A stretch of DNA of 64,000 nucleotides, taken from the NCBI RefSeq assembly GCF_016863015.1, contig NZ_BOOB01000030.1:62001-126000 (forward strand). The letters are read 5' to 3'. This document shows positions 10,599 to 25,773 of the stretch, in pieces (the first letter of the stretch is position 1; each line of letters starts with the position of its first letter). Origin of the DNA: Microbispora amethystogenes. GTDB taxonomy: Bacteria; Actinomycetota; Actinomycetes; Streptosporangiales; Streptosporangiaceae. A model generated the notes under the pieces. It saw nothing but the letters and a program-made list of their open reading frames with translations, made no database searches and was not told the DNA's origin. The position numbers and the translations under genes were made by a program.

Positions 10599-11879
10599 CT
10601 ACGTCGGCAACCGCGACGGCCAAGGAGCCGGAGGGAGCGCGTCGTCCTCCCGCTCCCGCCGGCTCGCCCGCCGCGCGAGCACGAGCAGGACCGCGAGCCC
10701 CGCGCCCGAGCCCGCGAACGCGGCGAGCGCGATGCCGCCATAGAGCAGGATCGCGCCGGTGTCGCGCCGTACGACCACGATGGGCTCCTGGCCGCCCGCC
10801 GCCGTACGGAGGGGACGCGCGGGGTTCAGCACGCCGGCGCCGGACGCGACGGCGCGGTGCCGCGCGAGGGTGGCCGCGACGCTCAGCGCGCGGTACGCGT
10901 TGACCACCCCGAAGCCGGTGCCCGTGTTGTAGGGCCCCTTCCGGGCGGGCGACGAGGTGAGCGCCTGCGCGACGAGCGCGGGCGACATCCGGGGATGGCG
11001 CGACTTGATGAGCGCGGCGATCCCGGAGACGAGCGCGGTCGCCTGGGAGGTCCCCCGGCCGACCCAGTACTCGTCGCCCGGGCCCGCCCCGAGGACGTCC
11101 ACGCCGGGGGCGGCCACCATGACCGAGGAGTTGCGGTTGGAGAACGAGGCCCGCCGCAGCGTGGAGGTGACCGCGGCCACCGAGATCACGCCGGGGATCG
11201 CCGCGGGGTAGGAGTACGGCGCGGTCTGCTTGCCCGCGCCGTCGTTGCCCGCCGCGGCGACCAGGACGACGCCCTTGGATATCGCGTACCGGATGGCCGC
11301 GCGCTCGTCCTCCGTCGGCATGTCCTTCGACAGCGACAGGTTGACGACCTCGGCGCCGTGGTCCACGGCGTACCTGATGCCCTTGGCGACCACGCCCTCG
11401 TAGCGCGCGTCGGAGTTGAACGTGCGGAACCCGGGCTCCTCGTCCTCCAGGATCACCCGTACGGACAGCACCCGGGCCTCCGGCGCCACGCCGATGATGC
11501 CGTCGGCCCCGTCCGGCCCGTGTCCGTGCCCGGCGATGAGCGAGGCCATGTACGTGCCGTGCAGCCGCACCGGCTGCACCCCACGGGGGTTGGCGCCGGT
11601 CGTGAAGTCCCTGCCGATGACGACCGAACCGGCGAGGTCGCGGTGGTCGGGGTCCACGCCCGAGTCCAGGACCGCCACGGTGACGCCCGCGCCCTTCGTC
11701 AGCTGCCACGCGTCGTCGACGTCGAGGGTCCGCAGCACGTCCTGCTGGCTGAGCCGTACGTCGTCGGCCCGGGCCGCCCCCGGCTGGAGGAACGCCCCGC
11801 CGGGCACGGTGAGCGCCCCGGCCGCGAGCGCGGCCAGGACGCACCTCCTGATCCTCGTACGTGCGCGCCGGGTCAGCAC
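10599..11879 (-). CDS. Mycosin-like membrane-anchored subtilisin-family serine protease
   Basis: 426 residues: signal peptide (VLAALAAGALTVPGGAFL), subtilase domain, and a C-terminal membrane helix (LLYGGIALAAFAGSGAGLAV) with a basic cytoplasmic tail. The catalytic triad is intact: Asp72 in VAVLDSGVD, His107 in RLHGTYMASLIAG and Ser278 in GRGTSQATALVSG, with the oxyanion Asn in AAAGNDG. The layout is that of mycosins, proteases of type VII secretion, but no EsxA/EccC-type gene lies nearby, so substrate and partner are unknown. It begins with GTGCTGA overlapping the upstream stop, the same join as in the second module copy. Confidence 0.9.
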   Translation of the reverse strand: MLTRRARTRIRRCVLAALAAGALTVPGGAFLQPGAARADDVRLSQQDVLRTLDVDDAWQLTKGAGVTVAVLDSGVDPDHRDLAGSVVIGRDFTTGANPRGVQPVRLHGTYMASLIAGHGHGPDGADGIIGVAPEARVLSVRVILEDEEPGFRTFNSDARYEGVVAKGIRYAVDHGAEVVNLSLSKDMPTEDERAAIRYAISKGVVLVAAAGNDGAGKQTAPYSYPAAIPGVISVAAVTSTLRRASFSNRNSSVMVAAPGVDVLGAGPGDEYWVGRGTSQATALVSGIAALIKSRHPRMSPALVAQALTSSPARKGPYNTGTGFGVVNAYRALSVAATLARHRAVASGAGVLNPARPLRTAAGGQEPIVVVRRDTGAILLYGGIALAAFAGSGAGLAVLLVLARRASRREREDDALPPAPWPSRLPT

Positions 11880-12592
11880 TGCCACTCCCGGGCCCTGCAG
11901 TCCGGGGACACCGGCGCGGTCAGGATCGCGGCGACGTCCCCGGACAGGTCGCCCGCGAACGAGAAGATCGTCGCCCGCTGCTGCCCGACCCCGCGGGCCG
12001 GCCGCCCGTCGACCTGGCCCGCCGTCGTGAGCACGAGGTAGGGCCCGGCCTGCCGTACGGTCGCGGCCTGCCGCCCGCCCGCGGTGAAGCGGTCGGTCAC
12101 GGTGCCGGGGAACGGGAGGGCACGCAGGCCCGGGACGGGCGCCCCCTCGCGGGGGAAGGCGGCGAGCGCGGTGCGCGCCCGGGTCGCGTCGGGGAAGGCC
12201 GCCACGCCGATCGTGACCACGACGCCCTGCAGGCCGTCGAGGTAGGTGGCCCGCAGGACCGCCCGGCACCCGGCCGCGCGCAGCGCCTTGACGACGGCGG
12301 TGTCGACGGCCGACCGGCAGTCGGTGCGGGTGGAGACGCCCACCCGCCGCGCCAGCTCACGGCCGCCCTGCTCGCTGTTGTAGGCCAGGCTCGCGGGGAA
12401 GACGCGCCCCACCGGCCAGCGTTCCCAGCGCAGCGCCGTCTCGGCCGCCTGCGCCTCGCGCAGCTCGGCCTGGCTGGGCCCCCGGGTGAGCTCGGCGACC
12501 GCCGCGCTCGCCGCGATGCCACCGGCGATCGCGCAGATCAGAGTGATCGCGGAGGCCACGGCGACGGCCGGCCAGGTGCGGGTCTCGCCCAC
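11873..12592 (-). CDS. Membrane-anchored protein paired with the active subtilase (module copy A)
   Basis: 239 residues from a GTG at 12592. One membrane helix lies near the N-terminus (VAVASAITLICAIAGGIAAS), followed by an extracytoplasmic domain that parallels the 9699-10589 protein: WERWPVGRVFPASLAYN, ARRVGVSTRTDCRSAVD, AAGCRAVLRATYLDG, FPGTVTDRFTAGG and a final REWQC. The frame remains open to an ATG at 12715, but that stretch overlaps the GGAAAGT operator array, so the GTG is preferred. Likely role: an accessory or inhibitor-like partner of the adjacent protease; this is inference from pairing only. Confidence 0.75.
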   Translation of the reverse strand: MGETRTWPAVAVASAITLICAIAGGIAASAAVAELTRGPSQAELREAQAAETALRWERWPVGRVFPASLAYNSEQGGRELARRVGVSTRTDCRSAVDTAVVKALRAAGCRAVLRATYLDGLQGVVVTIGVAAFPDATRARTALAAFPREGAPVPGLRALPFPGTVTDRFTAGGRQAATVRQAGPYLVLTTAGQVDGRPARGVGQQRATIFSFAGDLSGDVAAILTAPVSPDCRAREWQC

Positions 12593-13615: not shown

Positions 13616-14794
13616 TCAGTAGGTCGGCAGGCTGGGGTCGACCGTCTTGATCCAGCTCAGCACGCCGCCGCCCACGTGGACGGCGTCGGAGAAGCCGGCG
13701 TTCTTCAGCACCGCGAGGACCTCCGCCGAGCGGGCGCCCGACTTGCAGTGCAGCACGATCTTCCGGTTCTGCGGGAGCCCTTCCAGGGCCGAGCCGTTCA
13801 GGAACTCGCCCTTGGGGATCAGCACGGCGCCGGGGATGCTGACGATCTCGTACTCGTTCGGCTCGCGGACATCGATGATCATGATGTCGTCGCCGCGGTC
13901 GCGCATCGCCTCGAGCTCGGCCGCGGTGATCGTGCTGCCCGCGGCGGCCTGCTGGGCCTCGTCGGAGATCGTGCCGCAGAACGCCTCGTAGTCGATCAGT
14001 TCGGTGATCGAGGGGTTCTTGCCGCACAGCGGGCACTCGGGGTCCTTGCGGACCTTGACGTCGCGGTACTTCATCTCCAGCGCGTCATAGATCATCAGAC
14101 GGCCGACGAGAGGCTCGCCGACGCCGGTGAGGACCTTGATGGCCTCGTTCACCTGGATCGAGCCGATCGACGCGCACAGCACGCCGAGCACGCCGCCCTC
14201 GGCGCAGCTCGGCACCATGCCCGGCGGCGGGGGCTCGGGGTAGAGGCAGCGGTAGCACGGCCCGTGCTCGGCCCAGAAGACGCTCGCCTGCCCGTCGAAG
14301 CGGTAGATGGACCCCCACACGTACGGCTTGCCCAGCAGCACGGCCGCGTCGTTGACCATGTAGCGGGTGGCGAAGTTGTCCGTGCCGTCCACGATCAGGT
14401 CGTAGCCGGAGAAGATGTCCATCACGTTGTCGGTCGTCAGAGCGACGTTGTGGATGATGACGTTGACCAGCGGGTTGACCTCACGCACGCTGGCGGCGGC
14501 CGACTCGGCCTTCAGCCGGCCCACGTCCGACTGGCCGTGGATCACCTGCCGCTGGAGGTTCGACTCGTCGACGACGTCGAAGTCGACGATGCCGAGGGTG
14601 CCCACCCCCGCCGCGGCCAGGTACAGCAGGGCGGGAGAGCCCAGGCCGCCCGCGCCCACACACAGCACCTTGGCGTTCTTGAGCCGCTTCTGACCCGCCA
14701 TGCCCACATCGGGGATGATCAGGTGGCGCGAGTAGCGGCGCACCTCGTCGACCGTCAGCTCTGCTGCCGGCTCTACCAGCGGTGGCAACGACAC
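13616..14794 (-). CDS. moeZ: Adenylyltransferase/sulfurtransferase MoeZ (MoeB-rhodanese)
   Basis: 392 residues. The N-terminal E1-like domain adenylates the C-terminus of ubiquitin-like sulfur carriers (MoaD, CysO, ThiS types): VLCVGAGGLGSPALLYLAAA binds ATP and DGTDNFATRYMVNDAA follows. Zinc Cys pairs are seen as CYRC and CPLC. The C-terminal rhodanese domain has the active loop HCKSGARS. The GTG start gives the usual VSLPPLVEPAAELT beginning; the frame extends upstream to 14875 without support. It serves thiocarboxylate formation for molybdopterin, cysteine or thiamine synthesis. The hydrolase gene lies 112 bases upstream on the same strand. Confidence 0.95.
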   Translation of the reverse strand: MSLPPLVEPAAELTVDEVRRYSRHLIIPDVGMAGQKRLKNAKVLCVGAGGLGSPALLYLAAAGVGTLGIVDFDVVDESNLQRQVIHGQSDVGRLKAESAAASVREVNPLVNVIIHNVALTTDNVMDIFSGYDLIVDGTDNFATRYMVNDAAVLLGKPYVWGSIYRFDGQASVFWAEHGPCYRCLYPEPPPPGMVPSCAEGGVLGVLCASIGSIQVNEAIKVLTGVGEPLVGRLMIYDALEMKYRDVKVRKDPECPLCGKNPSITELIDYEAFCGTISDEAQQAAAGSTITAAELEAMRDRGDDIMIIDVREPNEYEIVSIPGAVLIPKGEFLNGSALEGLPQNRKIVLHCKSGARSAEVLAVLKNAGFSDAVHVGGGVLSWIKTVDPSLPTY

Positions 14795-14906
14795 AGTTCC
14801 ACTCCTGCTTTGCGTGTCCGTCTTCGTGCCAATGGTCGCGCTCGGCTCCATGGGCCCATCACAAGCTCTTCTCACAACTTAACCGGGGTGGCCCCGCATT
14901 CCCCAA

Positions 14907-15824
14907 TCACGCTGTTCGGCGGGGGGGCATCCTCGTGTACGCCAGCAGGCGGCGCGCCTCGCGCGCGACGAGCTCGGGATACTCCATCTGCGCCACGTGC
15001 CCGGCGTGCGGGAGTGTGACGAGGCGCACGTCGCGGAAGGCCCGGCCCGACCGGTGCACCATGCGCGCGTGGATCAGACGGTCGCGCAGGCCGTACACGA
15101 CGAGGGTGGGCGCGGTCACCCGCCCGGCCTGCCGCCAGAGGTTGTCCTCGCCGAACCTGAAGTACTCCCGCACGATCGCGCGGGTGCAGCCGACCATGGA
15201 CATCACCGCGTGCGGCAGCGCGTCGCGGCGGCGCAGTTCCTCGACCGCCTCGCGCAGCCGGTCCGGATGCACCCGGCCCGTGTCGGCGTAGCACATGCTC
15301 ACCGTCGCCAGCACGCGCCGCTCGGGCGGGAGGGCGCTCAGCCACCGGACGGCCAGTTCGCCGATGGACGGGGCGGCCGACAGGGCGATCCTGGCCGGGC
15401 CGTACCTCGGCCGCAGGTCGGGCAGCGCCGGTGAGACCAGCGTCAGCGAGCTGACCAGGTCGGGCCGCGTGGCCGCGACCCGGACCGAGACCGCGCCGCC
15501 CATGGAGTGACCGAAGAGGTGGACCGGGCCGTCCCCGAGCGCCTCGACGAGCCTGACCACCGCGGTGGCGCTGGCCGCGACGGAGTAGTCGCCGTCCGGC
15601 GGCTCCGGGGAGTGCCCGGCCCCGGGCAGGTCGACCGCGACGCCCCGCACCTCGCCGGCGAGCTCGCCCATCAGGTCCGTCCAGTTCGTCGCCGAGCCCG
15701 CCAGCCCGTGGACGTAGACGGCGGTCTCCCGCGGCCCCTCCGGAGTCGCCCGGAGATGGAGGCGGCCGCCGCCCTCCACGTCGATGAACCGGCCGGGCCA
15801 CACCGGAATCGGCTCGTATCCCAC
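14907..15824 (-). CDS. Alpha/beta-hydrolase
   Basis: 305 residues with a complete alpha/beta-hydrolase core: VYVHGLAGSATNW (oxyanion HG), LFGHSMGGAVSVR with the nucleophile Ser, GLRDRLIHARM with the acidic residue and LPHAGHVAQMEYPELVA with the His. There is no signal peptide. The start at 15824 is chosen because GGAGGAC stands a few bases ahead of the GTG. The substrate is unknown. It precedes moeZ on the same strand. Confidence 0.9.
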   Translation of the reverse strand: MGYEPIPVWPGRFIDVEGGGRLHLRATPEGPRETAVYVHGLAGSATNWTDLMGELAGEVRGVAVDLPGAGHSPEPPDGDYSVAASATAVVRLVEALGDGPVHLFGHSMGGAVSVRVAATRPDLVSSLTLVSPALPDLRPRYGPARIALSAAPSIGELAVRWLSALPPERRVLATVSMCYADTGRVHPDRLREAVEELRRRDALPHAVMSMVGCTRAIVREYFRFGEDNLWRQAGRVTAPTLVVYGLRDRLIHARMVHRSGRAFRDVRLVTLPHAGHVAQMEYPELVAREARRLLAYTRMPPRRTA

Positions 15825-16216
15825 GCGTCCTCCCCCGCTGCACCTCGCGTTTCCGACCATAACCCCGCCGGTACGACGCCTCGGCGGGCACTCCCCCTAC
15901 CCAGGTGGAACGGGAACGATCATCCGGTTCGTCCCGATCAGACGGGCGCGACATAAGCCCAATATCCACCCCATTCGGACATTTCGAAATGCGGATATGA
16001 ATGACATTCCACGCAAACCAAGCGCTAGCGGTTCAACGGAGCCAATAAAGCGATAAGCAGAAGGCAAAAGCCGCCGATCGCCGTTTGTCGCTCGGACGCC
16101 GAGGAAATCAAGACAATGCAGGGATGATCCACCAAGGGTCATCAGTAAGGGCATTTTCCGAACGACTTGGAAAACGCCGGAGTGTCGGGGCAACAATCCT
16201 TCAAGGAGGACATGAA
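15825..16216. other. Intergenic control region ahead of the Asn-rich cluster
   Basis: A 392-base stretch between divergent genes, markedly more AT-rich from 15945 on than its surroundings, with no credible gene. It holds CGGACATT (15978-15985), a motif repeated ahead of two other cluster members, and near the end CAATCCTTCAAGGAGGACAT (leader and ribosome-binding site, 16194-16213), which recurs with small changes in four other members. The promoter is not pinned down. Confidence 0.5.
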
Positions 16217-16801
16217 ATGCCCAAGTTCAACAACCTGGTCGGGATCCTCGCGATCAGCGCCGCACTCACCGGTGGTGCCGTCACGCTGGGTACCGCGGTC
16301 GCCGGCAGCGCGAACGCGGCGACCGTCATGGGCGGCTACGTGGGCGGCGGTGGCTACCCGTACCCCTACGGCAACTTCAACTCGAACCGCAATTCGCAGC
16401 GGCAGAAGCACAAGGCGCTGAACGGCAACAAGAACAAGAACAAGAACAAGACGAAGCAGTGGCAGCACGAGCGGCAGAACCAGGGCCAGCACCAGTTCCT
16501 GCTGCGTGACTTCACGCTCGTCCTCACGCCGTTCCAGAAGTCGGAGACCGACTCGCGGGCCCTGCCGTACAACTGGCAGAACGGCAACTCGCAGGCGATT
16601 CCGTGGAACCGCATGTACACGAACGCCGACTCCCTCAACAACCCGCGTCAGGACCAGGCGTCCGCGGCCACTCCGCGGACCAACCAGGCCACCGAGATCG
16701 ACCCGCGCATCAAGAAGAAGGAGGCGAACGTCGACCTCGACGTGGACGCGGACATCCAGAAGAAGAAGGACATGGACCCGGACCCCGTGTTCGTGCCCTG
16801 A
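16217..16801 (+). CDS. Secreted Lys/Asn-repeat protein, Asn-rich cluster member 1
   Basis: 194 residues with a Sec signal peptide: MPKFNNLVGILAISAALTGG, then cleavage after about GSANA. The mature part begins ATVMGGYVGGGGYPYPYG. It continues with a (Lys-Asn)n run coded by four AACAAG hexamers, WQHERQNQGQHQFLLRDF, the block FTLVLTPFQKS, LPYN and a charged tail NQATEIDPRIKKKE with VDLDVDADIQKKK. The protein at 17201-17806 is a clear paralog. AAGGAGGA lies 7 bases before the ATG. No catalytic motif, membrane anchor or known domain is visible; a structural or surface role is only a guess. Confidence 0.85.
   Translation: MPKFNNLVGILAISAALTGGAVTLGTAVAGSANAATVMGGYVGGGGYPYPYGNFNSNRNSQRQKHKALNGNKNKNKNKTKQWQHERQNQGQHQFLLRDFTLVLTPFQKSETDSRALPYNWQNGNSQAIPWNRMYTNADSLNNPRQDQASAATPRTNQATEIDPRIKKKEANVDLDVDADIQKKKDMDPDPVFVP
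16427..16450 (+). repeat. AACAAG hexanucleotide repeat, four copies
   Basis: Four perfect head-to-tail AACAAG units code for alternating Asn-Lys. In-frame units of this kind can expand or contract without breaking the gene. The paralog at 17201 carries the same run. Confidence 0.9.
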
Positions 16802-17200
16802 CGCGATCCGGACCGGCGGTCCGGTGAACGTCTTCGCTCCGGCGGGTGACGCGTCATCCGGACGCCCATCCCGTGCTCGCGACCGGGCGACCTCGCCTGG
16901 GACCTCGGTCGCGAGCCGGGGGGACACACGCGCGAGTGGTTGAGCGGCGGCGTACCCGCGGAGCGGGACGGGCGGCGACCGAGACCCGCGGATGCGGACC
17001 GGCGTCACCAGGGCCGCTGCTCCGTACGCGGACGCGTGAGCAGTTGAGGAAGGAGCGCCGGCGGCGGGTTTCCGAGGAGAGGGCCGCCGGCGCGGGTCAT
17101 CGCATCGCGCCGCCTCACGGCGGCGACTTACCTGCTGTCACCCCGCCCGTCTCCGTACGGGGCCGGGCGGGGTCGCGATATTCAGAGGAGAACCAACCAG
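16802..17200. other. Spacer between cluster members 1 and 2
   Basis: 399 bases with no gene I can support. Right after the stop is an inverted repeat CCGGACC-GGC-GGTCCGG (16808-16824), perhaps a terminator. The rest is GC-rich. A good AGAGGAGA ribosome-binding site is at 17184-17191. Unlike the other members, member 2 lacks the AATCCT leader. Confidence 0.5.
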
Positions 17201-17806
17201 ATGTCCGTGTTGAAGAACATCGCCGGGGCTCTTGCCCTCGGCACCGCGCTGGGCGGCGCGGCCGTCGTGCTCGGCGGCGCCGTCGGCGCCGCGGCCGGCG
17301 CGACGACCGTCATGGGCGGCTACATCCCCGCTCCGAGCGCTCCGGCCCGCTACTACCCGCGCAGCTACAACACCAACTGGAACGCCAACTCGCAGCGGCA
17401 GGGCCACAAGGCGGCCAACCGCAACAAGAACAAGAACAAGAACAAGAACCACGAGTGGCAGCACGCTCGTCAGTCCGAGTACCAGGACCAGTTCCTGATG
17501 CGGGACTTCACGCTCGTGCTCACGCCGTTCCAGAAGTCGTCCAACGGCTCGGCCGCGCTGCCGTACAACGCCCAGTGGAGCCAGACGCAGGCGCTGCCCT
17601 ACTCGAGCCAGTACGACAACACGCAGTCGCAGAACCTGCCGCGCCAGGGCCAGGCCTCGCTCGCCGACCCGAAGACGAACCAGGCGACCGAGATCAACCC
17701 GAATCTGAAGGCGAAGAAGCTCGACGTGGACGCCGACATCGACATCAAGAAGAAGGAGGAGAAGAAGAAGAGGGAGATGGCGGACGACTTCGAGGCCGTT
17801 CCCTGA
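17201..17806 (+). CDS. Secreted Lys/Asn-repeat protein, Asn-rich cluster member 2
   Basis: 201 residues, paralog of member 1. Signal peptide MSVLKNIAGALALGTALGGA, then TTVMGGYIPAPSAP. A run of Asn-Lys (four AACAAG hexamers) is followed by HEWQHARQSEYQDQFLMRDF and the same FTLVLTPFQKS block, LPYN and LPYS repeats rich in Gln and Ser, and a tail NQATEINPNLKAKK with VDADIDIKKKEEKKK. Shared order and spacing show duplication followed by divergence of the middle. The highly charged, low-complexity mature chain is probably mostly disordered. Function unknown. Confidence 0.85.
   Translation: MSVLKNIAGALALGTALGGAAVVLGGAVGAAAGATTVMGGYIPAPSAPARYYPRSYNTNWNANSQRQGHKAANRNKNKNKNKNHEWQHARQSEYQDQFLMRDFTLVLTPFQKSSNGSAALPYNAQWSQTQALPYSSQYDNTQSQNLPRQGQASLADPKTNQATEINPNLKAKKLDVDADIDIKKKEEKKKREMADDFEAVP
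17423..17446 (+). repeat. AACAAG hexanucleotide repeat, four copies
   Basis: The same in-frame Asn-Lys coding unit as in member 1, again four perfect copies. Confidence 0.9.
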
Positions 17807-17821
17807 TCCTGAATGATCGCC

Positions 17822-17850
17822 GCGCGGCCGGCCGGGACGACCGGCCGCGC
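17822..17850. terminator. Hairpin after member 2
   Basis: Perfect 10-base arms GCGCGGCCGG and CCGGCCGCGC around a 9-base loop, 15 bases past the stop. No T-run, as is common for actinomycete terminators. Confidence 0.6.
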
Positions 17851-17873
17851 CCAGGGAGTGTCAGAGATCTCCT

Positions 17874-17898
17874 GGCCCCGGGCCGCAGGCCCGGGGCC
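17874..17898. repeat. Inverted repeat, 11-base arms
   Basis: GGCCCCGGGCC and GGCCCGGGGCC around GCA, 23 bases after the previous hairpin. Probably a second terminator element. Confidence 0.6.
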
Positions 17899-17906
17899 GG
17901 ACGAAC

Positions 17907-17964
17907 GTGCCCGTGCTCGCCGCGGTGTGGCTCGGTTTTCCGGCCACGTCCCGAGCACGGGCAC
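17907..17964. repeat. Inverted repeat, 13-base arms with 32-base loop
   Basis: GTGCCCGTGCTCG (17907-17919) is matched exactly by CGAGCACGGGCAC (17952-17964). The third inverted repeat in 140 bases. The long loop makes it less typical of a terminator; a protein-binding or structural role is possible. Confidence 0.6.
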
Positions 17965-18293
17965 TTCCGTCTTCCCCGGCTTCCCCGCCCCTCCGGCTTT
18001 TCCCGCCCCTTCCCAGCCCTCCCGGCCCCGGCTCCTGGCCGGCCGCGCCGACGGTCCACCCATCCCGAGAATCGGACATTACGGGACAAGTCACACTTTT
18101 ATCCTCTAATTCGCGCCATAAAGAGCTATCGGCTGATCAAAAGGCATAGAGCGGAGTTTGTCCGAGGATACCGACGGACATCAACGTAGCGCAGGAACCC
18201 GGCCCCGTGAGGGGCCTCAAAGATATCTCCCGGCCGGACAGGCGAGAGATATCGAAGGATGCGGGGGAGATCCAATCCTTTAGGGGGACAGCA

Positions 18294-18764
18294 ATGCGCA
18301 AGTTCACGAGGGTTATCGCCGGGCTCGCACTCGGCACCGCGGCCGCGGGCGGCGCCATCGCCATGGGCGCGACGGCGGCGAGCGCGGGGACCGACAACGG
18401 GCTCGGCACCTTCGCCTTGTCGAGCCCGCCCATGATGAACAACACCTTCATCCCGTTCGGCGACTTCGGCAATAACAACAACAACTGCGGCAACAACCTC
18501 GGCAACGGCAACGGTTGCTGGAACAATAACAACAACAACAACATGTTCTGGAACAACCAGTCGTTCTGGAACCAGAGCGCCTTCACCGACAACGTCGACG
18601 ACGACTCCAGCTTCGCCGTCATCGGCAAGGACGCCGCCATCGCGTTCCAGGACTCCACCAAGCGGAACAGCAACTTCTTCAACAGCGGCTGGTGGCAGAA
18701 CAACAACTGGTGGAACAACAACAATAACAACTGCTGGAACAACAACCTCGGCAACGGCTTCTAA
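18294..18764 (+). CDS. Secreted Asn/Trp-repeat protein, Asn-rich cluster member 3
   Basis: 156 residues. Signal peptide MRKFTRVIAGLALGTAAAGG with likely cleavage after ASAG. The mature chain is dominated by Asn runs (GNNNNNCGNNLGNGNGCWNN) and Trp pairs. A conserved block FAVIGKDAAIAFQDSTKR is followed by FFNSGWWQNNNWWNN; members 4 and 5 have the same block in the same order. Three Cys are present (FGNNNNNCG, GNGCWNN and NNNNNCWNN). The ATG is preceded by TAGGGGGACA. A composition of Asn with aromatic residues is typical of self-associating chains, but no assay-based role is known. Confidence 0.85.
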   Translation: MRKFTRVIAGLALGTAAAGGAIAMGATAASAGTDNGLGTFALSSPPMMNNTFIPFGDFGNNNNNCGNNLGNGNGCWNNNNNNNMFWNNQSFWNQSAFTDNVDDDSSFAVIGKDAAIAFQDSTKRNSNFFNSGWWQNNNWWNNNNNNCWNNNLGNGF

Positions 18765-19098
18765 ACCACTCCGCCGTAACGGCCTGCGAGACAACCGCGC
18801 CGTTCGGACTCCGGACGGGTGACGGGACGACCCGGACAGGCACTCGCGGAAGTTCTCCCGCCCTCCGGCGCCGGCGCGGCGCCCCGAGTTGAGCGCAGTC
18901 ACACGTTCCCACGAAAACCGGGAACGGCCGTTCGATCCGACGCGTGACTCACAAGGGCTCCGGCGGTTCTCTCTCGCCGGAGCCCTGACCTCCACACGAC
19001 CTCAAGCCTCACGGGGATTCCGAGGCACTTTCTCCGCGCCGTCGGAGAAAGGCCCCGGGAGATCAGGGCACATCGAATCCTGTCAAGGGGGACACGCA
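18765..19098. other. Spacer between members 3 and 4
   Basis: 334 bases. The 3' part of the member 3 transcript shows short matches to that of member 4 (GCGAGAC, GGTGACGG, GTTGAG.GCAG), so the two units were duplicated with their tails. It also contains CGTTCCC/GGGAACG (18904-18925), the stem-loop at 18954-18986 and the ATCGAATCCTGTCAAGGGGG leader. Only 112 bases separate the stem-loop from the next ATG and no separate promoter is obvious. Confidence 0.5.
18954..18986. terminator. Cluster stem-loop 1 (12-base perfect stem)
   Basis: Arms AGGGCTCCGGCG and CGCCGGAGCCCT around GTTCTCTCT, 190 bases after the member 3 stop. Nearly identical hairpins lie at 19793 and 21121 at the same distance behind members 4 and 5. 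Confidence 0.75.
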
Positions 19099-19590
19099 AT
19101 GCCCAAGCTCACCACGATCGTCGCAGGTTTCGCGCTCGGCGCCGCCGTCGCCGGGGGCACACTCGCCATGGGGATGACGGCCGCCGGCGCTTCCAGCGTC
19201 GACGACGGCATCGCGAACGGCGACCGGGGCGGCACCGGCGGCATCGCCCAGGACAACCTGGTCGGCAGGAACGCCTTCCCGGTCTTCGCGGTGCCCGTCG
19301 AGAACAACAACCTGAACAACAACCGGAACACCCTGCAGCAGAACCAGAACAACAACGACAACAACTCGCTGTGGGGTCAGCAGGGCTTCTGGAACCAGGG
19401 CCTGTTCGCCGACCGCCGGAACGACACCTCCGGCTTCGGCATCGTGTGCAAGGGCGTCGCCATCGGCTTCCAGGACAAGACCAACCGCGACAACACCTTC
19501 TTCAACAACAACTGGTGGCAGAACAACAACTGGTGGAACAACCGCGACCAGCGCAACAACTGGTGGAACAACAACGAGAACGTGCGCTGA
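19099..19590 (+). CDS. Secreted Asn/Trp-repeat protein, Asn-rich cluster member 4
   Basis: 163 residues. Signal peptide MPKLTTIVAGFALGAAVAGG, cleavage near AAGAS. The mature start VDDGIANGDRGGTGGIAQDN matches member 5. Asn-rich linkers (ENNNLNNNRNTLQQNQNNN) lead to WGQQGFWNQGLFADRRND and the conserved FGIVCKGVAIGFQDKTNRDN block, then FFNNNWWQNNNWWNN repeated at the end. RBS AAGGGGG. No known domain, anchor or enzyme motif. Asn is almost always AAC, in line with host codon use, so the gene is not obviously foreign. Confidence 0.85.
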   Translation: MPKLTTIVAGFALGAAVAGGTLAMGMTAAGASSVDDGIANGDRGGTGGIAQDNLVGRNAFPVFAVPVENNNLNNNRNTLQQNQNNNDNNSLWGQQGFWNQGLFADRRNDTSGFGIVCKGVAIGFQDKTNRDNTFFNNNWWQNNNWWNNRDQRNNWWNNNENVR

Positions 19591-20315
19591 GAGGGCAGGT
19601 TCCCAGCGGCCCTGCGAGACGATCACGCCGCGCTGCGAAGGTGACGGAAGAAGCCACGCGCCATCGGGAACTTCCGGCCCCGGACCGGCGGACCGGCGCC
19701 GTTGAGTGCAGAAACAGGTCTCTCGGCACATCGGCCGCTCCCGGAGCGGCCTGAGAACCGAGGACAGCCGTCCGACTCTCGACGCACCACCAAGGGCTCC
19801 GGCGGGACCTTCCGCCGGAGCCCTGCCTTGTAGGACCCCCTTTTCGAAGCCTCCCGAAGCCCTCCCCCGGTCCTCCCGCAAGCCCTCACCCCCGCCCCCC
19901 AGGCCCACAGGCGCAGGCCCCACCGCTGCCGCACATCAGGGCCCTCCTCGTACGGCGCACCGCCGGTCCGTGACCGCCGCCTCGGCACCGCTCCCCGCCA
20001 CACGCCGGCCCGTCCCGGTTCGCGCCGCCGGCACGAGACACGCGCCATGCCTGTACGGCCCTTCGGAGCAGGGGCGCAAATCGTACCTTTCTCCGCATAA
20101 GGCGCATTATCCCTCGAATCAATCCTATAGGCAGCTAATCATTACCCAAAAGCATCAGATCCTCGTTTGTCAGACCCGCACAGAGGAAATCACCCTAGCG
20201 TCGGAAGTAAGGCTCGATAAGGGCCATATTGGCAATTCTCACAGCCGGAATATGTGCGGGAAATGCCAGGTACTACGGGCAATCGACAATCGAATCCTGT
20301 CAAGGAGGACACATA
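19591..20315. other. Long spacer between members 4 and 5
   Basis: 725 bases. It holds the member 4 tail and its stem-loop (19793-19824), then a C-rich, probably untranslated tract (19840-20000), then an abruptly AT-rich segment (20085-20265) that should contain the member 5 promoter. Next come CTACGGGCAATC (20272-20283), shared with member 6, and the leader ATCGAATCCTGTCAAGGAGG. Open frames across it have no gene-like composition. Confidence 0.5.
19793..19824. terminator. Cluster stem-loop 2 (13-base perfect stem)
   Basis: Arms AGGGCTCCGGCGG and CCGCCGGAGCCCT around GACCTT, 202 bases after the member 4 stop. Same arms as stem-loops 1 and 3. Confidence 0.75.
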
Positions 20316-20942
20316 ATGCCCAACCTCAAGAAGGTCATCACCGGCCTCGTTCTGAGCACCGCGGTCGTCGGCGGCGCCATCGCCCTCGGGACCACGGCCG
20401 CCAGCGCCGGGGACGGGGACCGGGACGGTGTCGCCGACGGCAACCGGGGCGGCACGGGCGGCATCGCCCAGGGGAACACCGGCCTGGGCAACGGGCTCTT
20501 CCCCGGCTTCACCACGGGCACCGACAACAACGGCGTCTCCAACGGCAACCGGGGCGGCACGGGCGGCATCGCCCAGGGGAACACCGGCCTGGGCAACGGC
20601 GTCGGCCAGGGCTTCCCTGCCTTCGCCACCGCCAACCCCTTCGTCGACGGTAACAACCGGAACAACAACGCCAACAACAACAACCACTTCAACAACAACC
20701 AGTTCAACAACGGCAACAACTGGTGGTGGGACCAGCGGGGGTACTGGGGCCAGAACCTCTACAAGGACGGCAAGGACGACCACTCCGCGTTCGGCGTCGT
20801 CGCCAAGGACGTCGCCCTCGGCTTCCAGGACAAGACGAACCGGGACAACAACTGGTTCCACAACAACTGGTGGCAGAACAACGGCTGGTACAACAACAAC
20901 GACCGGTTCGACCGCAACAACTGGAACCGCCTGCGCCAGTAA
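20316..20942 (+). CDS. Secreted Asn/Trp-repeat protein, Asn-rich cluster member 5
   Basis: 208 residues, the longest of the group. Signal peptide MPNLKKVITGLVLSTAVVGG, cleavage near AASAG. The mature chain starts with two exact copies of a Gly/Asn module (GNRGGTGGIAQGNTGLGNG). An Asn-rich linker and WWWDQRGYWGQNLYKDGKDD follow, then the conserved FGVVAKDVALGFQDKTNRDN and NNWWQNNGWYNN. Strong AAGGAGG site. The module copies are identical at DNA level, so that duplication is recent. The gene should export a self-associating-type chain; function unknown. Confidence 0.85.
   Translation: MPNLKKVITGLVLSTAVVGGAIALGTTAASAGDGDRDGVADGNRGGTGGIAQGNTGLGNGLFPGFTTGTDNNGVSNGNRGGTGGIAQGNTGLGNGVGQGFPAFATANPFVDGNNRNNNANNNNHFNNNQFNNGNNWWWDQRGYWGQNLYKDGKDDHSAFGVVAKDVALGFQDKTNRDNNWFHNNWWQNNGWYNNNDRFDRNNWNRLRQ
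20437..20494 (+). repeat. 58-base direct repeat, copy 1
   Basis: Identical to 20542-20599 over 58 bases, offset exactly 105 bases (35 codons), so the reading frame is kept. It encodes the Gly/Asn module of member 5. Confidence 0.95.
20542..20599 (+). repeat. 58-base direct repeat, copy 2
   Basis: Second identical copy of the module. Recombination between the copies would delete or add one 35-residue unit in frame. Confidence 0.95.
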
Positions 20943-21475
20943 CGGGGCTGCTCCGTTCTCGCGGTATCGCTTCAACGGGGCACGGAGGGGCGGGGTGAGT
21001 GGTCCCGCTCTCCCGCCTCCGTCCCGCGACAAAAACGAAGAAGAGTGCAGACAAGCGGTTTCCGAGGTGCCGGGCGTCCGGCGCGGATAATCGCCCATCG
21101 ATTCTCTATGGCATGAGACAAGGGCTCCGGCGGAGGTTCTCGCCGGAGCCCTGACCTTTGCCCGGCCCAGGACGGCGGGCGGAAACCACGGTCACGAGGA
21201 TTGGGAGAGCCGGAGGCGGGGAATGCGGCCGGGCGAGTACCCTCCGGCACTGCCGGTGAATCGCGGACCGGACACCGACTGCGTCAGCAACCGGTTAACC
21301 CGTGCCATGGGTCGCAACGAGAGTTCAAACTCTCCCTCGCCGCGTTTGGCCGCGGGCCCCTTCGGCAATCTAGACACCACGGCGATGACCGGACATATAG
21401 GTCAGAACCGGACATCTCCGGTTCCCACCGGAGAAGTCAGAACTACGGGCAATCCATCCTTCGAGGAGGGCCTCT
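20943..21475. other. Spacer between members 5 and 6
   Basis: 533 bases with no supported gene. It contains stem-loop 3 (21121-21152) and, towards member 6, two CGGACAT copies (21390-21396 and 21409-21415), a small hairpin TCTCCGG-TTCCCA-CCGGAGA (21415-21434), CTACGGGCAATC and CATCCTTCGAGGAGGGC before the ATG. Confidence 0.5.
21121..21152. terminator. Cluster stem-loop 3 (12-base perfect stem)
   Basis: Arms AGGGCTCCGGCG and CGCCGGAGCCCT around GAGGTTCT, 178 bases after the member 5 stop; followed by GACCTTTG. Confidence 0.75.
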
Positions 21476-21778
21476 ATGCCCAAATTCCGGAACGTCATCA
21501 CCGGTCTGGCGGTCAGCACGGCAATGGCCGGCGGCGCGCTCGCTCTGAGCACCGTCAGCGCCCACGCCTCCACCCCGACCACCGCCACCATCGTCACCAA
21601 GTGGGGCTGCGGCTGGGACGGCCACGGGCACGGCCGCAACTACAACAAGAACAAGCTCGTGAACCGGAACGACTTCCGCAGCTTCAAGTACTACAGGATC
21701 AAGAAGGTCAACCGGAACACCGCCGCCTTCGCGTCCGGCGACGCGGTCGTCGACATCGACGGCGACGACGACGACTGA
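21476..21778 (+). CDS. Small secreted protein, Asn-rich cluster member 6
   Basis: 100 residues. The signal peptide MPKFRNVITGLAVSTAMAGG belongs to the same type as the other five. The mature part is short and unlike them: TTATIVTKWGCGWDGHGHGR, a basic stretch YNKNKLVNRNDFRSFKYYRI and an acidic end VVDIDGDDDD. The tail echoes the VDxDxD tails of members 1 and 2. GGAGGG precedes the ATG. One Cys and two His could bind metal, but nothing proves it. Confidence 0.8.
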   Translation: MPKFRNVITGLAVSTAMAGGALALSTVSAHASTPTTATIVTKWGCGWDGHGHGRNYNKNKLVNRNDFRSFKYYRIKKVNRNTAAFASGDAVVDIDGDDDD

Positions 21779-21855
21779 TCCGGACGGCGCTACCCGGCGC
21801 CGCTTCCTTCCGCACCGTGAACAATCCGCACGGTGGACAATCCGTACAGTGAACA

Positions 21856-21882
21856 AGCCCCGGCGGGACAGCCGCCGGGGCT
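21856..21882. terminator. Hairpin between member 6 and the Ku gene
   Basis: Perfect 11-base arms AGCCCCGGCGG and CCGCCGGGGCT around GACAG. It lies between the ends of converging genes and can serve both. The sequence resembles, but is not the same as, the three cluster stem-loops. Confidence 0.75.
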
Positions 21883-21928
21883 CCCGTGGATCGGCGAGGC
21901 AGCGCGAGGAAGCAGGCGGGCCGAACGA

Positions 21929-22897
21929 TCAGGCGGAGCGGCGGGTCTTGCGCTTCCTGGGGGCGCTCTCCTCCTCCGCGCCGTCCGAGGCCGCCTTGCC
22001 GTCACTCTTCGCGGCACTCTTCGCGGCAGGCTTCGCAGCACTCTTCCCGGCGCTCTTCGCCGAACTCCCCGCCGCGCTCTTCGCGGCCGTCCTCTCCTGC
22101 GGCTTCGCCGCCTCGGCGCCCTGGCGTTCCCGCTTCGCGGCCTCGACGCTGGCGCGCAGCGCGGCCATGAGGTCGACGGCCGGGCCCTGCTCGGCGGGCG
22201 CCTCGGGCGCCACGATCTCCCTGCCCGCGACCTTGGCCTCGATGACCTCCTGCAGGGCCTCACGGTAGGCGTCCGTGTACTCCGCCGGATCGAAGTCGGC
22301 CACCATCGTGTCGATCAGCGACTCGGCCATCTTCAGTTCCTGTGGCCGCACCGGGACGTCCTCCTCCAGGAAGCCGAAGTCGGCCTCGCGGATCTCGTCC
22401 GGCCAGAGCATCGTCTCCAGCACGAACACGCCGTCCCGGACGCGCAGCGCGGCCAGCGACTCCCGCTGGCGGAGGGCGATCTTCACGACCGCCACCTGCC
22501 CCGACCGCTCCAGGGCGTCCCGCAGCAGCACGTACGGCTTCGCCCCCTGCCCGTCGGGCTCCAGATAGTAGGACTTCGCGAAGTAGATGGGGTCGATCTG
22601 GTCGGCGGGGGTGAACTGCAGCACGTCGATCCGCCGCGAGGTGGTCAGCGGCAGGTCGGCGAAGTCGTCGTCGGTCAGCACGACCATCTCACCGGTCGGA
22701 AGCTCGTACCCCTTGGCGATGTCGGCGTACGGCACCTCCTCGCCGTCGACCGAGCAGACCCTCTTGTACTTGATCCGCCCGCCGTCCTCCCGGTGCACCT
22801 GATGGAAGCTGACGTCCTTCTGTTCGGTCGCGGAGTACAGCTTGATGGGAATGGTGACCAGACCGAACGAGATGGCGCCTTTCCAGATGCTCCGCAT
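21929..22897 (-). CDS. ku: Ku protein of non-homologous end joining
   Basis: 322 residues starting MRSIWKGAISFGLVTIPIKL, the standard bacterial Ku opening. The Ku core follows: FHQVHREDGGRIKYKRVCSV, LPLTTSRRIDVLQFTPADQI and the dimer region. The last 70 residues are a Lys/Ala-rich extension (AAKSAAGSSAKSAGKSAAKP) ending RKRKTRRSA, the type of basic tail that helps Ku thread along DNA. A further in-frame ATG at 22945 lies inside the promoter gap and is unlikely. It is divergent from the LigD-type genes, 77 bases apart, so the double-strand break repair set shares a control region. Confidence 0.95.
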   Translation of the reverse strand: MRSIWKGAISFGLVTIPIKLYSATEQKDVSFHQVHREDGGRIKYKRVCSVDGEEVPYADIAKGYELPTGEMVVLTDDDFADLPLTTSRRIDVLQFTPADQIDPIYFAKSYYLEPDGQGAKPYVLLRDALERSGQVAVVKIALRQRESLAALRVRDGVFVLETMLWPDEIREADFGFLEEDVPVRPQELKMAESLIDTMVADFDPAEYTDAYREALQEVIEAKVAGREIVAPEAPAEQGPAVDLMAALRASVEAAKRERQGAEAAKPQERTAAKSAAGSSAKSAGKSAAKPAAKSAAKSDGKAASDGAEEESAPRKRKTRRSA

Positions 22898-22974
22898 GGC
22901 TACATTCTCGTCTCTGTGTTCGAATACCGCTATGCTGGGATTCAAGGGAGTTACCTCATGGGCAGGTACCCACT
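22898..22974. promoter_or_regulatory. Divergent promoter region of the NHEJ genes
   Basis: A 77-base gap between the divergent starts of Ku and the ligase, AT-richer than its flanks. TATGCT (22931-22936) is a plausible rightward -10. No clear operator was recognised. Confidence 0.45.
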
Positions 22975-23931
22975 ATGGCGGTGCCGTACCCGGTCGAACC
23001 CATGCTCGCGGTCGCCGGCGAGCTTCCCCGAAACCCCGGCGACTACGCCCTTGAGGTGAAGTGGGACGGCATCCGCGCGCTCGCGTACGTCGACGGCGGG
23101 GTGGTGCGGGTGACCGGCCGGCACGGCGCCGACTTCACCTCCCGCTACCCCGAGATCGCCGCCGCCATGGCCCCGCTCGCCGGGCACCGGGCGGTCGTCG
23201 ACGGCGAGGTGGTCGTCTTCGACCACGAGGGACGGCCGAGTTTCGCCCGGCTGCAGCGCCGCATGCACGTGACCGATCCGGCGGGCGCCCACGTGCTCGG
23301 CCTCCTGCCGGCGTCCTACCTCCCCTTCGACCTGCTCCATCTGGACGGGCACACGCTGCTCGACCTGCCGTACCGGGACCGGCGGGCGCTGCTCGACTCG
23401 CTCGGCCTGGGCGCGCCGCCGTCCTTCCCCTGCGAACCGGAGGTCGTGGAGGCGACCAGGCGGCAGGGGCTGGAGGGCGTGGTCGCCAAGCGCCTCGACT
23501 CGCCGTACCTGCCGGGGCGCAGGACGGACTGGTGGATCAAGGTCAAGAACCTGCGCACCACCGAGGTGGTCGTCGGCGGCTGGCGGCCCGGCAAGGGCCG
23601 CCGCGCGGGCGGCGTCGGCTCGCTCCTGCTCGGCGTGTACGGCGGGCCTCCCCCGGGCGCTCTCCTCTTCGCGGGGCATGTGGGGACCGGCTTCACCGAC
23701 GCCGTGCTGGACGACATCCGCGGCCTGATTGAGCCGCTCGAGATCGGGCAGAGCCCCTTCTCTGGCGGGCTGCCGAGAGAGATCTCCAGGAATGCCCGCT
23801 GGCTCCGGCCCGAAGTGGTCGGCGAGGTGGCGTTCAGTATGTGGACCCGCGACGGACGGCTGCGCAACCCGGTGTGGCGCGGCGTCCGCGTGGACAAGAT
23901 CCCCGCGGAGGTGCGGCGGGAGGAGCGGTGA
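22975..23931 (+). CDS. ligD: ATP-dependent DNA ligase, LigD ligase-domain type
   Basis: 318 residues, a stand-alone ATP-dependent ligase as in the LigD ligase domain. The nucleotidyl-acceptor Lys is K29 in EVKWDGIRALAYV. VVDGEVVVFDHEGRPSFARL, GLEGVVAKRLDSPYLPGRR and WWIKVKN supply the remaining nucleotidyltransferase motifs, and an OB-fold follows to RRNPVWRG-like sequence near the end. It seals ends brought together by Ku. Its TGA overlaps the ATG of the polymerase gene, so LigD activities are split into two coupled genes here; no phosphoesterase domain is seen. Confidence 0.9.
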   Translation: MAVPYPVEPMLAVAGELPRNPGDYALEVKWDGIRALAYVDGGVVRVTGRHGADFTSRYPEIAAAMAPLAGHRAVVDGEVVVFDHEGRPSFARLQRRMHVTDPAGAHVLGLLPASYLPFDLLHLDGHTLLDLPYRDRRALLDSLGLGAPPSFPCEPEVVEATRRQGLEGVVAKRLDSPYLPGRRTDWWIKVKNLRTTEVVVGGWRPGKGRRAGGVGSLLLGVYGGPPPGALLFAGHVGTGFTDAVLDDIRGLIEPLEIGQSPFSGGLPREISRNARWLRPEVVGEVAFSMWTRDGRLRNPVWRGVRVDKIPAEVRREER

Positions 23932-24812
23932 TGACGGAGAAGGTGCGGGTGAAGGTCGAGGACCGGATGCTGGTCCTGACCAACCTGGACAAGGTCCTCT
24001 ATCCCGGCACCGGGTTCACCAAGGCCGAGGTGATCGACTACTACACCCGGATCTCCCCGGTCCTGCTCCCGCATCTGCGCGGGCGTCCGCTCACGGTCAA
24101 GCGCTATCCGAACGGCGCGGACGCCGCGTTCTTCTTCGAGAAGAACGCCCCCGACCACACGCCCGACTGGGTCCGTACGGTGACCCTCCCCGCGCCGGGC
24201 AGCACGAAGAACCGCGAGGAGATCGAGTTCGCGGTCGTGGAGGACCTGCCCACACTCGTCTACTACGCCAACCTGGCCGCGCTGGAGATCCACGTGCCGA
24301 TGTGGCGGGTGGCAAAGGACGGCGAGCCGCAGCCGCCCGACACCCTCGTCTTCGACCTCGATCCCGGGGCGCCGGCCACGATCGTCGACTGCTGCCGGGT
24401 CGCCGTCCTGCTGCGGCGGGCGCTGGCCGACGACGGCCTGGAGAGCCATCCGAAGACCAGCGGCAACAAGGGCATGCAGCTCTACGTCCCGTGGGACCGC
24501 GGGCCCGGCACCTCCGACTACGCCAAGGCGCTGGCCCGGCGGATGCAGGAGGAACACCCCTTCGTGACCAGTGTGATGGCCAGGAAGGAAAGGCCGGGCA
24601 AGGTCTTCATCGACTGGAGCCAGAACAATCCGGCCAAGACCACCGTCGCGCCGTACTCGCTGCGCGCCAACCCGCTGCCGACCGTGTCGACGCCCCTGCG
24701 GTGGGAGGAGGTCGAGGCGTGCGAGAACCCGGAGCAGCTCGTCTTCACCTCCTCCGACGTGCTGAAGCGCGTCGCGGAACACGGCGACCTGTTCGTGCCC
24801 CTTGGCGCTTAG
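23931..24812 (+). CDS. ligD: LigD-type NHEJ polymerase (primase-like PolDom)
   Basis: 293 residues of the archaeo-eukaryotic primase-like polymerase found in LigD: LTNLDKVLYPGTGFTKAEVI, RPLTVKRYPNGADAAFFFEK, the metal-binding DLD near residues 142-144 in LVFDLDPGAP, SGNKGMQLYVPW and VFIDWSQNNPAKTTVAPYSL. It fills gaps and adds nucleotides during end joining. The ATG overlaps the ligase stop (TGATG). An upstream in-frame ATG at 23841 falls inside the ligase and is rejected. Confidence 0.92.
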   Translation: MTEKVRVKVEDRMLVLTNLDKVLYPGTGFTKAEVIDYYTRISPVLLPHLRGRPLTVKRYPNGADAAFFFEKNAPDHTPDWVRTVTLPAPGSTKNREEIEFAVVEDLPTLVYYANLAALEIHVPMWRVAKDGEPQPPDTLVFDLDPGAPATIVDCCRVAVLLRRALADDGLESHPKTSGNKGMQLYVPWDRGPGTSDYAKALARRMQEEHPFVTSVMARKERPGKVFIDWSQNNPAKTTVAPYSLRANPLPTVSTPLRWEEVEACENPEQLVFTSSDVLKRVAEHGDLFVPLGA

Positions 24813-24879
24813 CCCGGCCGCACCCCTGGCCGTAGTGTTGGACCTGTCGCAGCCGACCGTCGAACGGAAGGAAGATCAC

Positions 24880-25080
24880 ATGCCAGAGATGGAGCCCCTC
24901 GACGAGGTCGCCGAGGAGATCTCGATCGAGGCGCCGGAAGCCGACGCGGTCGAGCAGCACCAGCTCGTCAAGGTCGCCGAGGACAGGCGCTGGCCCGAGC
25001 GCGTTCCGTTCGACGCCGACCCGGCCGACGTGACCGAGCAGGAGCGCACGGTCGACCTCGACGACGACGACTATCGCTGA
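24880..25080 (+). CDS. Small acidic hypothetical protein
   Basis: 66 residues starting MPEMEPLDEVAEEISIE, very acidic, ending VDLDDDDYR. The middle HQLVKVAEDRRWPERVPFDA is the least biased part. GGAAGGAAG lies upstream of the ATG. There is no signal peptide or membrane helix. It lies between the LigD polymerase and a TetR gene, all on the same strand. I do not recognise the family. Confidence 0.6.
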   Translation: MPEMEPLDEVAEEISIEAPEADAVEQHQLVKVAEDRRWPERVPFDADPADVTEQERTVDLDDDDYR

Positions 25081-25152
25081 TCACGGATACCGACACGTAG
25101 GATGAGGCCCCGGGGCGGGAGCCCCCGATGCGCTTTGTGCAAGGAGACTGCC

Positions 25153-25773
25153 GTGACCGCTACCCCGGACGCCAAGCCCCGGGGCACCCGGCTGCCCCGG
25201 ATGGCCCGCCGCCGCCAGTTGCTGAGCGCGGCGCAGGAAGTGTTCGTGGAGAACGGCTACCACGCCGCGGCGATGGACGAGATCGCCGAGCGGGCCGGGG
25301 TGAGCAAGCCGGTGCTCTACCAGCACTTCCCGGGCAAGCTTGAGCTGTATCTCGCGCTGCTCGACCTGCACGTCGACGACATGGTGAACCGGTGCCGCCA
25401 GGCGCTCGAGTCCACCACCGACAACAAGCAGCGGGTGCAGGCGGCCATCGGCGCCTTCTTCGACTTCGTGTCGAGCCAGGGAGAGGCCTTCCGGCTGGTC
25501 TTCGAGTCCGACCTGCGCAACGTGGCGCCCGTACGGCAGCGCATGGAGCGCTCGCTGTACGAGAGCGCCGAGGCGATCAGCCGGGTGATCCAGGAGGACA
25601 CCGGCTGCTCCAGCGACGAGGCGCACCTGCTCGGCGTCGGCCTGGTCGGCATGGCCGAGGTGAGCGCGCGCTACTGGCTGAGCAGCCACGGCTCGATCCC
25701 CAAGGAGGCGGCGACGCAGTTGATGGCACGCCTGGCCTGGCGCGGCATCAGCGGTTTTCCCCGCACCGGCTGA
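25153..25773 (+). CDS. TetR-family transcriptional regulator
   Basis: 206 residues. The N-terminal helix-turn-helix domain is clear: RRRQLLSAAQEVFVENGYHA, MDEIAERAGVSKPVLYQHFP. A C-terminal all-helical ligand domain follows (FFDFVSSQGEAFRLVFESDL). The GTG at 25153 has AAGGAG 9 bases ahead. It stands before a DUF3107 gene, as in the Rv3208/Rv3208A pair of mycobacteria (from memory). Its ligand is unknown. Confidence 0.92.
   Translation: MTATPDAKPRGTRLPRMARRRQLLSAAQEVFVENGYHAAAMDEIAERAGVSKPVLYQHFPGKLELYLALLDLHVDDMVNRCRQALESTTDNKQRVQAAIGAFFDFVSSQGEAFRLVFESDLRNVAPVRQRMERSLYESAEAISRVIQEDTGCSSDEAHLLGVGLVGMAEVSARYWLSSHGSIPKEAATQLMARLAWRGISGFPRTG

Follow-up and report, generated by a model that had tools for sequence, protein, structure and literature searches.

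Six tandem genes of Microbispora amethystogenes encode exported proteins of no recognised family, most of them belonging to a wider set with a shared leader and promoter-like region

We analysed a 64,000-nucleotide stretch ('the window') of the 8.13 Mb genome of Microbispora amethystogenes (contig NZ_BOOB01000030.1, positions 62,001 to 126,000), in which six consecutive genes, here numbered 1 to 6, encode exported proteins. The six share one signal-peptide type, five have a conserved leader (one of them in part) and four have a promoter-like region. An earlier reading of the window, made from the sequence alone (the sequence-only reading), had presented the block of six genes as the best candidate in the window for an undescribed system. 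A system of six genes is too narrow a view. A promoter, leader and signal peptide common to a set that extends across the family unite most of the six, and the core of two of them recurs as the N-terminal module of larger exported proteins. Judging from sequence, we give about an even chance to the reading that the six have a structural role at the surface of hyphae or spores or in an extracellular matrix and are made at one developmental stage.

All six open reading frames lie in tandem on the + strand, as the sequence-only reading had reported, and each of the six proteins has, by eye, a Sec-type N-terminus with an AxA-like end, so that export is supported by the sequence. Genes 1 and 2 encode 'type-1' proteins, which are 56% identical and have in common FTLVLTPFQKS, a lysine-asparagine (Lys-Asn) stretch and charged tails; the type-1 core of these genes can be written, besides the form given in Table 1, as QWQHERQ..QFLLRDFTLVLTPFQKS..ALPYNWQ. 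Genes 3 to 5 encode 'type-2' proteins, in which the core F-G-x-V-x-K-x-V-A-x-G-F-Q-D-K-T-x-R, together with WWQNN, stands in Asn/Trp-rich chains. The motifs on which the sequence-only reading had relied (FTLVLTPFQKS and charged tails for genes 1 and 2; F-x-V-x-x-K-x-x-A-x-x-FQD and WWQNN for genes 3 to 5) are thus borne out. Its description of the proteins as Asn-rich fits genes 3 to 5, with 23-32% Asn in the mature part, but not genes 1, 2 and 6, with 10-12%. Gene 6 contains neither the type-1 nor the type-2 block.

For the six proteins, no Pfam or NCBIfam model scored over its cut-off (the best was a signal-peptide match, 19.4 bits vs. a cut-off of 135), and the chaplin model PF03777 matched none of them at E <= 1. 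Matches among homologues were weak and scattered: Syntaxin_2 in 10 of 52 type-1 homologues (best 2.7e-4), Glt_symporter in two (best 9.1e-6) and two single matches, and one family match among 37 type-2 homologues. Type 1 had no solved-structure relative at E <= 1, and type 2 no convincing one (a single chain at E 0.1). Homology between the type-1 and type-2 cores was rejected, as profile comparison gave no alignment, and no description of these proteins was found in open-licence papers. We conclude that the mature parts appear to belong to no known family and that types 1 and 2 are without detectable homology, which agrees with the earlier suggestion of an undescribed system.

The leader, of ~100-110 nt, is described by a structured model, R1. 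In the window genome R1 gave seven matches (150 scored of 771 candidates), each of which immediately precedes a gene with this signal peptide. Five belong to the block (genes 1, 3, 4, 5 and 6); the other two precede a solitary type-2 gene on contig C3 and a gene on contig C40. Genes 3 and 4 and the C40 gene had no part in the training set. Gene 2 has no R1 leader match. Under stricter filters, matches at E <= 1e-4 were present in 59 of the 200 family genomes, spread over 14 of the 68 genera. Of the 15 matches in stretches picked for R1 matches plus the C40 stretch, 14 stop 0-1 nt short of a start codon, and the genes that begin there encode small exported proteins whose signal peptides are similar; the C40 match overlaps the start of its gene by one base. 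The mature parts behind these leaders are very different, being Asn-, Gly- or His-rich. The lone type-2 paralogue (L009:9904-10398, contig C3), which has both promoter and leader matches, adjoins what is by eye a LytS/LytTR-type two-component pair.

In 73 de-duplicated leaders (set A5) two hairpins persist as their sequences vary. We drew up this two-helix structure manually, guided by averaged pair probabilities and covariation, and made the counts on the set afterwards. Pairing cells amounted to 77.4%, vs. 70.6 in shuffles, and two-sided changes occurred in 123 cells, vs. 64.3 in shuffles, with none of 500 shuffles as high; sliding the partner by 1-3 columns reduced two-sided changes to 38-64. 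Single folds of four leaders were only moderately better than shuffles (z -1.71, -2.28, -0.72 and -3.54). An identity as an ANTAR-type target RNA was considered; by eye, the hairpin loops differ in length. When the leaders of genes 1 and 5 were folded singly, a third hairpin formed over the Shine-Dalgarno sequence; we do not claim it as part of the structure. Assignment of the leader to a known RNA class was rejected, since Rfam 15 gave no leader-overlapping match in positions 15500-22500 of the window and 8 loci with lax thresholds.

Upstream of the leader lies the promoter-like region. We compared the upstream regions of 181 distinct genes with this signal peptide, which are related sequences and not independent ones. 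Most show, in order, AT-rich blocks, GTTT[GA]-N15-GG[AC]AA[AGT], a ~100-nt leader, GGGCAA, a Shine-Dalgarno sequence and ATG. The promoter pattern, with spacers of 14-16 allowed, fits 116 of the 181 regions, and the spacer is exactly 15 in 113 of these 116; GTTT is invariant by construction in the pattern-selected alignment (A6), and the pattern likewise demands that the third base of the -10 be A or C. We read the element as a putative promoter because the distance is fixed across an unconserved spacer. Genes 2 and 4 matched neither the exact pattern nor the promoter-region profile (R2) upstream, and gene 2 is perhaps co-transcribed with gene 1. In Streptomyces coelicolor, SigB-family promoters have the form GTTTAA-N12-14-GGG(A/T)A(A/T), with GTTT best kept for SigF, SigH and SigN, and some SigF or SigF/H promoters carry GGA or GGT at the -10 (Table 2 of PMC8346170). 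The elements described here resemble this set, and the SigF, SigH and SigN promoters in particular, in the -35 GTTT and in the spacing (GTTTGn-N14-GG in 113 of the 116 pattern-selected regions; published range 12-14). They differ from it in that the -10 begins with GGA or GGC rather than GGG, A or C standing at a third base that is mostly G in the published promoters, and in having extra conserved AT-rich blocks upstream. Two SigBFG-type sigma genes score over the cut-off in the window genome. We conclude that the putative promoter resembles SigB-family sporulation promoters. Many genes of the family also have, by eye, a conserved block centred on GGACATT at about -230 from the ATG, before the AT-rich blocks; it is possibly an activator site.

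The type-1 core is also found outside the block. Two weak R2 matches (E 0.009 and 0.31), at type-1-matched places of the window genome, led to two larger exported proteins, both of which start with a signal peptide and the type-1 core. We read 38 frames in all, namely these two and others from 35 stretches chosen among long-frame type-1 matches, and in the frames read the core is N-terminal, behind the signal peptide. By eye, what follows is a serine hydrolase in 12, a collagen-like region in six, Lys-Pro-Val repeats in six, one large domain, common to all of them and not recognised, in four, and a nuclease-like, a beta-helix-like and one other region in one each; in the remaining seven the core is followed by nothing more than a short end or a tail rich in Pro/Thr, Asn or Gly. 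Pfam scans of eight frames identified cargo in three, PF00144 (2.3e-58, in the window genome), PF03372 (1.4e-14) and PF01391 (2.9e-19), and gave no match in the other five. A somewhat looser promoter motif lies within ~330 nt upstream of 16 of the 38 frames, vs. 22 of 760 random stretches. The earlier remark that there is no enzyme among these proteins therefore holds within the block but not beyond it: elsewhere the type-1 core precedes enzyme domains, with one clear case in the window genome.

Profile searches with both types, which the sequence-only reading had proposed, show that the order and neighbours of the block recur across Microbispora and that other genera of the clade are matched too. 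Both profiles matched in all 10 sampled Microbispora genomes, the window genome included, and the order type 1, type 1, type 2, gene 6 is kept in 9 of 9 others, eight with six genes and one (G168) with five. Since the order is kept in these nine genomes and the type-1 core is conserved across genera, the block is not a product of chance. A type-1 scan of named genomes gave 34 loci, in Microbispora, Sphaerimonospora and Planotetraspora. Types 1 and 2 are both present in Sphaerimonospora (L049, L050), in Planotetraspora sp. A-T 1434 (L054) and in G039; in another Planotetraspora (L056) type 1 was seen with no clear type-2 core. Family tallies of 34/200 (profile A2) and 52/200 (A3) are inflated by signal-peptide-only matches and are not counts of cores. 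A type-1 core search of 394 genomes of the class matched five, all Microbispora, in a sample from which other genera of the clade are possibly absent. In the samples searched, the type-1 core is found in one clade of the family only.

The block occupies a fixed slot. The flanks named by the sequence-only reading (moeZ; NHEJ genes and TetR) were recovered: a hydrolase gene accompanies moeZ, and Ku/LigD and TetR lie at the opposite end. The pair of moeZ and hydrolase, with Ku and TetR opposite, bounds 17 of 20 regions around type-profile matches. The 17 include three (L057-L059) that are syntenic although their mature proteins look unrelated. In 18 genomes of other genera the slot, from hydrolase to next flank gene, measures 30 to 8183 bp, and it is almost empty in L243, L244 and L241 (30, 73 and 131 bp). 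Our filter counted one to three small exported genes in nine of these genomes, and five and seven respectively in L239 and L238; in the other seven it counted none, but it misses some: L232, scored as having none, has an R1 match in the slot. R1 leader matches lie inside the slot in 6 of the 18 (L231, L232, L234, L238, L239 and L240). In a distant genus (L228), small exported proteins stand in the same slot, one of which weakly matches the bacterial SH3 model PF06347 (E 0.0015, below cut-off).

The position of the block is old, and its sequence changes fast. The ratio of nonsynonymous to synonymous change (dN/dS) is 0.40-1.30 for the six genes (48 values; positional partners in eight Microbispora regions) and 0.05-0.38 for five flank genes (six relatives), by a simple method that, in GC-rich DNA, probably gives too low a value for synonymous change. 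Between genera it is the core of gene 1 that changes most slowly (dN 0.06-0.11, vs. 0.53-0.73 in the tail); inside the genus, the signal peptide and Lys-Asn stretch of the gene equal or exceed the core in conservation. The type-2 core is less well conserved across genera than the type-1 core. Identity to two close relatives, L045 and L089, is 0.88-0.99 in the flanks, falls to 0.62-0.90 in comparison windows between 16400 and 20800 and recovers from ~21200 on; over those same windows the two relatives are 0.87-0.96 identical to each other. The fall inside the block is abrupt, ~0.97 to ~0.7, a profile like that left by allele exchange. Synonymous divergence (dS) to L045 is 0.23-0.49 for genes 2 to 5, vs. 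0.03-0.09 for the flanks. The simplest reading is that the block was replaced, in the lineage of the window, by a divergent allele. No donor was found, identity to L040 being no more than 0.56-0.86.

Table 1. Features of the block and its flanks, in window positions
Feature	Position	Strand	Description
Gene 1	16217..16801	+	194 amino acids; signal peptide, Lys-Asn stretch, type-1 core (QWQHERQ..FLLRDFTLVLTPFQKS..ALPYNWQ), charged tail
Gene 2	17201..17806	+	201 amino acids; second type-1 protein
Gene 3	18294..18764	+	156 amino acids; signal peptide, Asn-rich chain, type-2 core (FAVIGKDAAIAFQDSTKR)
Gene 4	19099..19590	+	163 amino acids; type-2 protein (FGIVCKGVAIGFQDKTNRDN, NNWWQNNNWWNN)
Gene 5	20316..20942	+	208 amino acids; type-2 protein; GNRGGTGGIAQGN unit in two 105-nt copies
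Gene 6	21476..21778	+	100 amino acids; small basic mature part, acidic end; conserved in genus
Gene 1 leader	16103..16216	+	R1: two hairpins, GGGGCAA, Shine-Dalgarno; begins with the -10-like GGAAAT
Gene 3 leader	18176..18293	+	R1; outside training set
Gene 4 partial leader	19004..19098	+	R1 positions 25-114; outside training set; no promoter match
Gene 5 leader	20185..20315	+	R1
Gene 6 leader	21364..21475	+	R1
Gene 1 promoter-like element	16083..16109	+	GTTTG-N15-GGAAATC, exact pattern
Gene 3 promoter-like region	18096..18183	+	R2 profile match; exact pattern absent
Gene 5 promoter-like element	20165..20191	+	GTTTG-N15-GGAAATC, exact pattern
Gene 6 promoter-like element	21344..21370	+	GTTTG-N15-GGCAATC, exact pattern
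G+C-rich hairpin	18951..18991		AAGGGCTCCGGCGG..CGCCGGAGCCCT; 3' of gene 3; near-identical copies at 19790-19829 (gene 4) and 21118-21157 (gene 5)
Upstream flank	13616..15860	-	moeZ-type gene and alpha/beta hydrolase; syntenic
Downstream flank	21929..25773		Ku (-), LigD ligase and polymerase parts (+), TetR (+); syntenic

The hairpins after genes 3, 4 and 5 may be terminators. In the downstream flank, the LigD ligase part (22975-23931) has no half-query match in L045 and L089, where the alignment shows a gap and Ku and the polymerase part remain; the ligase part was probably lost in a lineage-specific manner in these two. Upstream of the block, 10599-12269 (-) encodes an exported subtilisin-like protease that has a membrane stretch at its C-terminus and by eye resembles mycosins.

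The shared control, the position of the core before secreted cargo and the fast, surface-like evolution are the grounds on which we favour a reading as scaffold and docking module. The surface or matrix role that the sequence-only reading had suggested becomes likelier with the type-1 core before secreted enzymes and collagen-like regions and with the sporulation-like promoter, but is still a predicted role. According to the favoured reading, a SigB/SigF-type sigma factor would turn the set on in aerial growth or sporulation, the structured leader would govern mRNA stability or access to the Shine-Dalgarno sequence, and the proteins would be exported via Sec. Outside the cell the Asn/Gln/Lys-rich parts and short cores would associate into a coat or matrix whose scaffold is made of the stand-alone proteins, and the type-1 module would fix larger proteins (serine hydrolase, nuclease-like, collagen-like and others) to the layer. 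Surface exposure, for example to phages or competitors, may drive the fast change and the allele exchange.

Several results weigh against this reading. For the leader, pairing cells reach 83.5% in hairpin 2 but just 69.9% in hairpin 1; pairs with any two-sided change number 16, vs. 14.5 in shuffles, with 94 of 500 shuffles as high; and automatic consensus folding gave four pairs. Related sequences, moreover, can exceed shuffles without any structure, and covariation cannot separate an RNA hairpin from a DNA palindrome. For the promoter, the first three G of the -10 are almost invariant in the published set (PMC8346170), and the block has GGA or GGC. For the cores, conservation of the type-2 core of gene 4 does not clearly exceed that of the sequence around it, and dN/dS values near 0.8 are also compatible with relaxed constraint. 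For the fusions, the promoter motif was found upstream of none of the 12 serine-hydrolase frames, and the two fusion loci of the window genome have no R1 leader and only weak R2 matches, so that co-regulation of the serine-hydrolase cargo is not supported. Finally, a known coat is already present: chaplins gave seven matches in the window genome and occur in 159 of 200 genomes. This coexistence rules out the set as a chaplin substitute, and the set would therefore be an addition and not a replacement.

It is possible, if somewhat unlikely, that the type-1 core does not self-assemble but binds the cell envelope, that is, peptidoglycan or anionic glycans, through its Lys/Asn/Arg/His-rich part, the small proteins being wall fillers and the fusions wall-anchored enzymes. 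The arrangement of a basic repetitive N-terminal half and then the conserved core before a PF00144 serine hydrolase would suit such a role, and the PF00144 family includes wall-active enzymes; the type-2 and gene 6 proteins, however, are without the type-1 core, and no wall-binding family was matched over cut-off. We regard it as improbable that the proteins are rodlin-like modulators of aerial growth, acting with chaplins and forming no layer of their own. The coexistence with chaplins and the likeness to sporulation-sigma promoters are what this idea would expect, but none of the six matches the chaplin model (no separate search for rodlins was made) and rodlins are not known as enzyme fusions. 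More improbable still is that the secreted proteins are antimicrobial or toxin-like or serve self-recognition: a constant promoter, leader and signal peptide before very different mature parts, and the sharp-edged divergence from close relatives, recall some bacteriocin sets, but no immunity partner was seen by eye among the open reading frames between the flanks (no search for immunity families was made), and the type-1 core is also a module before enzymes and collagen-like regions. Least credible is maintenance by tandem duplication of weakly constrained low-complexity secreted genes of little function, which the high dN/dS (0.40-1.30), the varying copy number and the nearly empty slot of some relatives would allow but the conservation of type-1 core, promoter, leader and gene order across genera opposes.

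Returning to the reading as exported surface or matrix proteins, partial likenesses to known systems can be drawn. Cohesin/dockerin, LysM and SH3b are, like the type-1 core, short domains recurring beside different secreted cargo; in contrast to them, the type-1 core is N-terminal after the signal peptide, matches no family and is known from a single clade in the samples searched. Curli-, TasA-type and other biofilm amyloids are secreted structural proteins, some of them Asn/Gln-rich, as are those of the block, but the six matched no family and no dedicated secretion or nucleator gene was seen nearby by eye. Streptomyces chaplins and rodlins are likewise multi-copy small exported proteins of sporulating mycelial actinomycetes (PMC4255298). 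From chaplins (PF03777) the present set differs in giving no chaplin match, in its Asn/Lys/Gln-rich chains, in occurring in addition to chaplins and in having one core that stands before enzymes.

Tentatively, and as a rather unlikely extension, we propose that the set constitutes a new, clade-wide modular extracellular layer, in which an Asn/Lys-rich scaffold would be joined by serine hydrolase, nuclease-like, collagen-like and beta-helix-like cargo docked through the type-1 module. The scaffold genes would stand under one cassette, comprising a SigB-type promoter, a new class of translation-controlling leader RNA and one signal peptide, which would serve as a landing platform for swapped and diversified mature proteins at a fixed slot. 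If this were true, there would be a natural display system and an undescribed class of leader RNA, with a constant 5' cassette and exchangeable secreted products outpacing neighbouring genes in evolution, and mycelial actinomycetes outside Streptomyces would use a second, unrelated surface protein set with a plug-in enzyme module.

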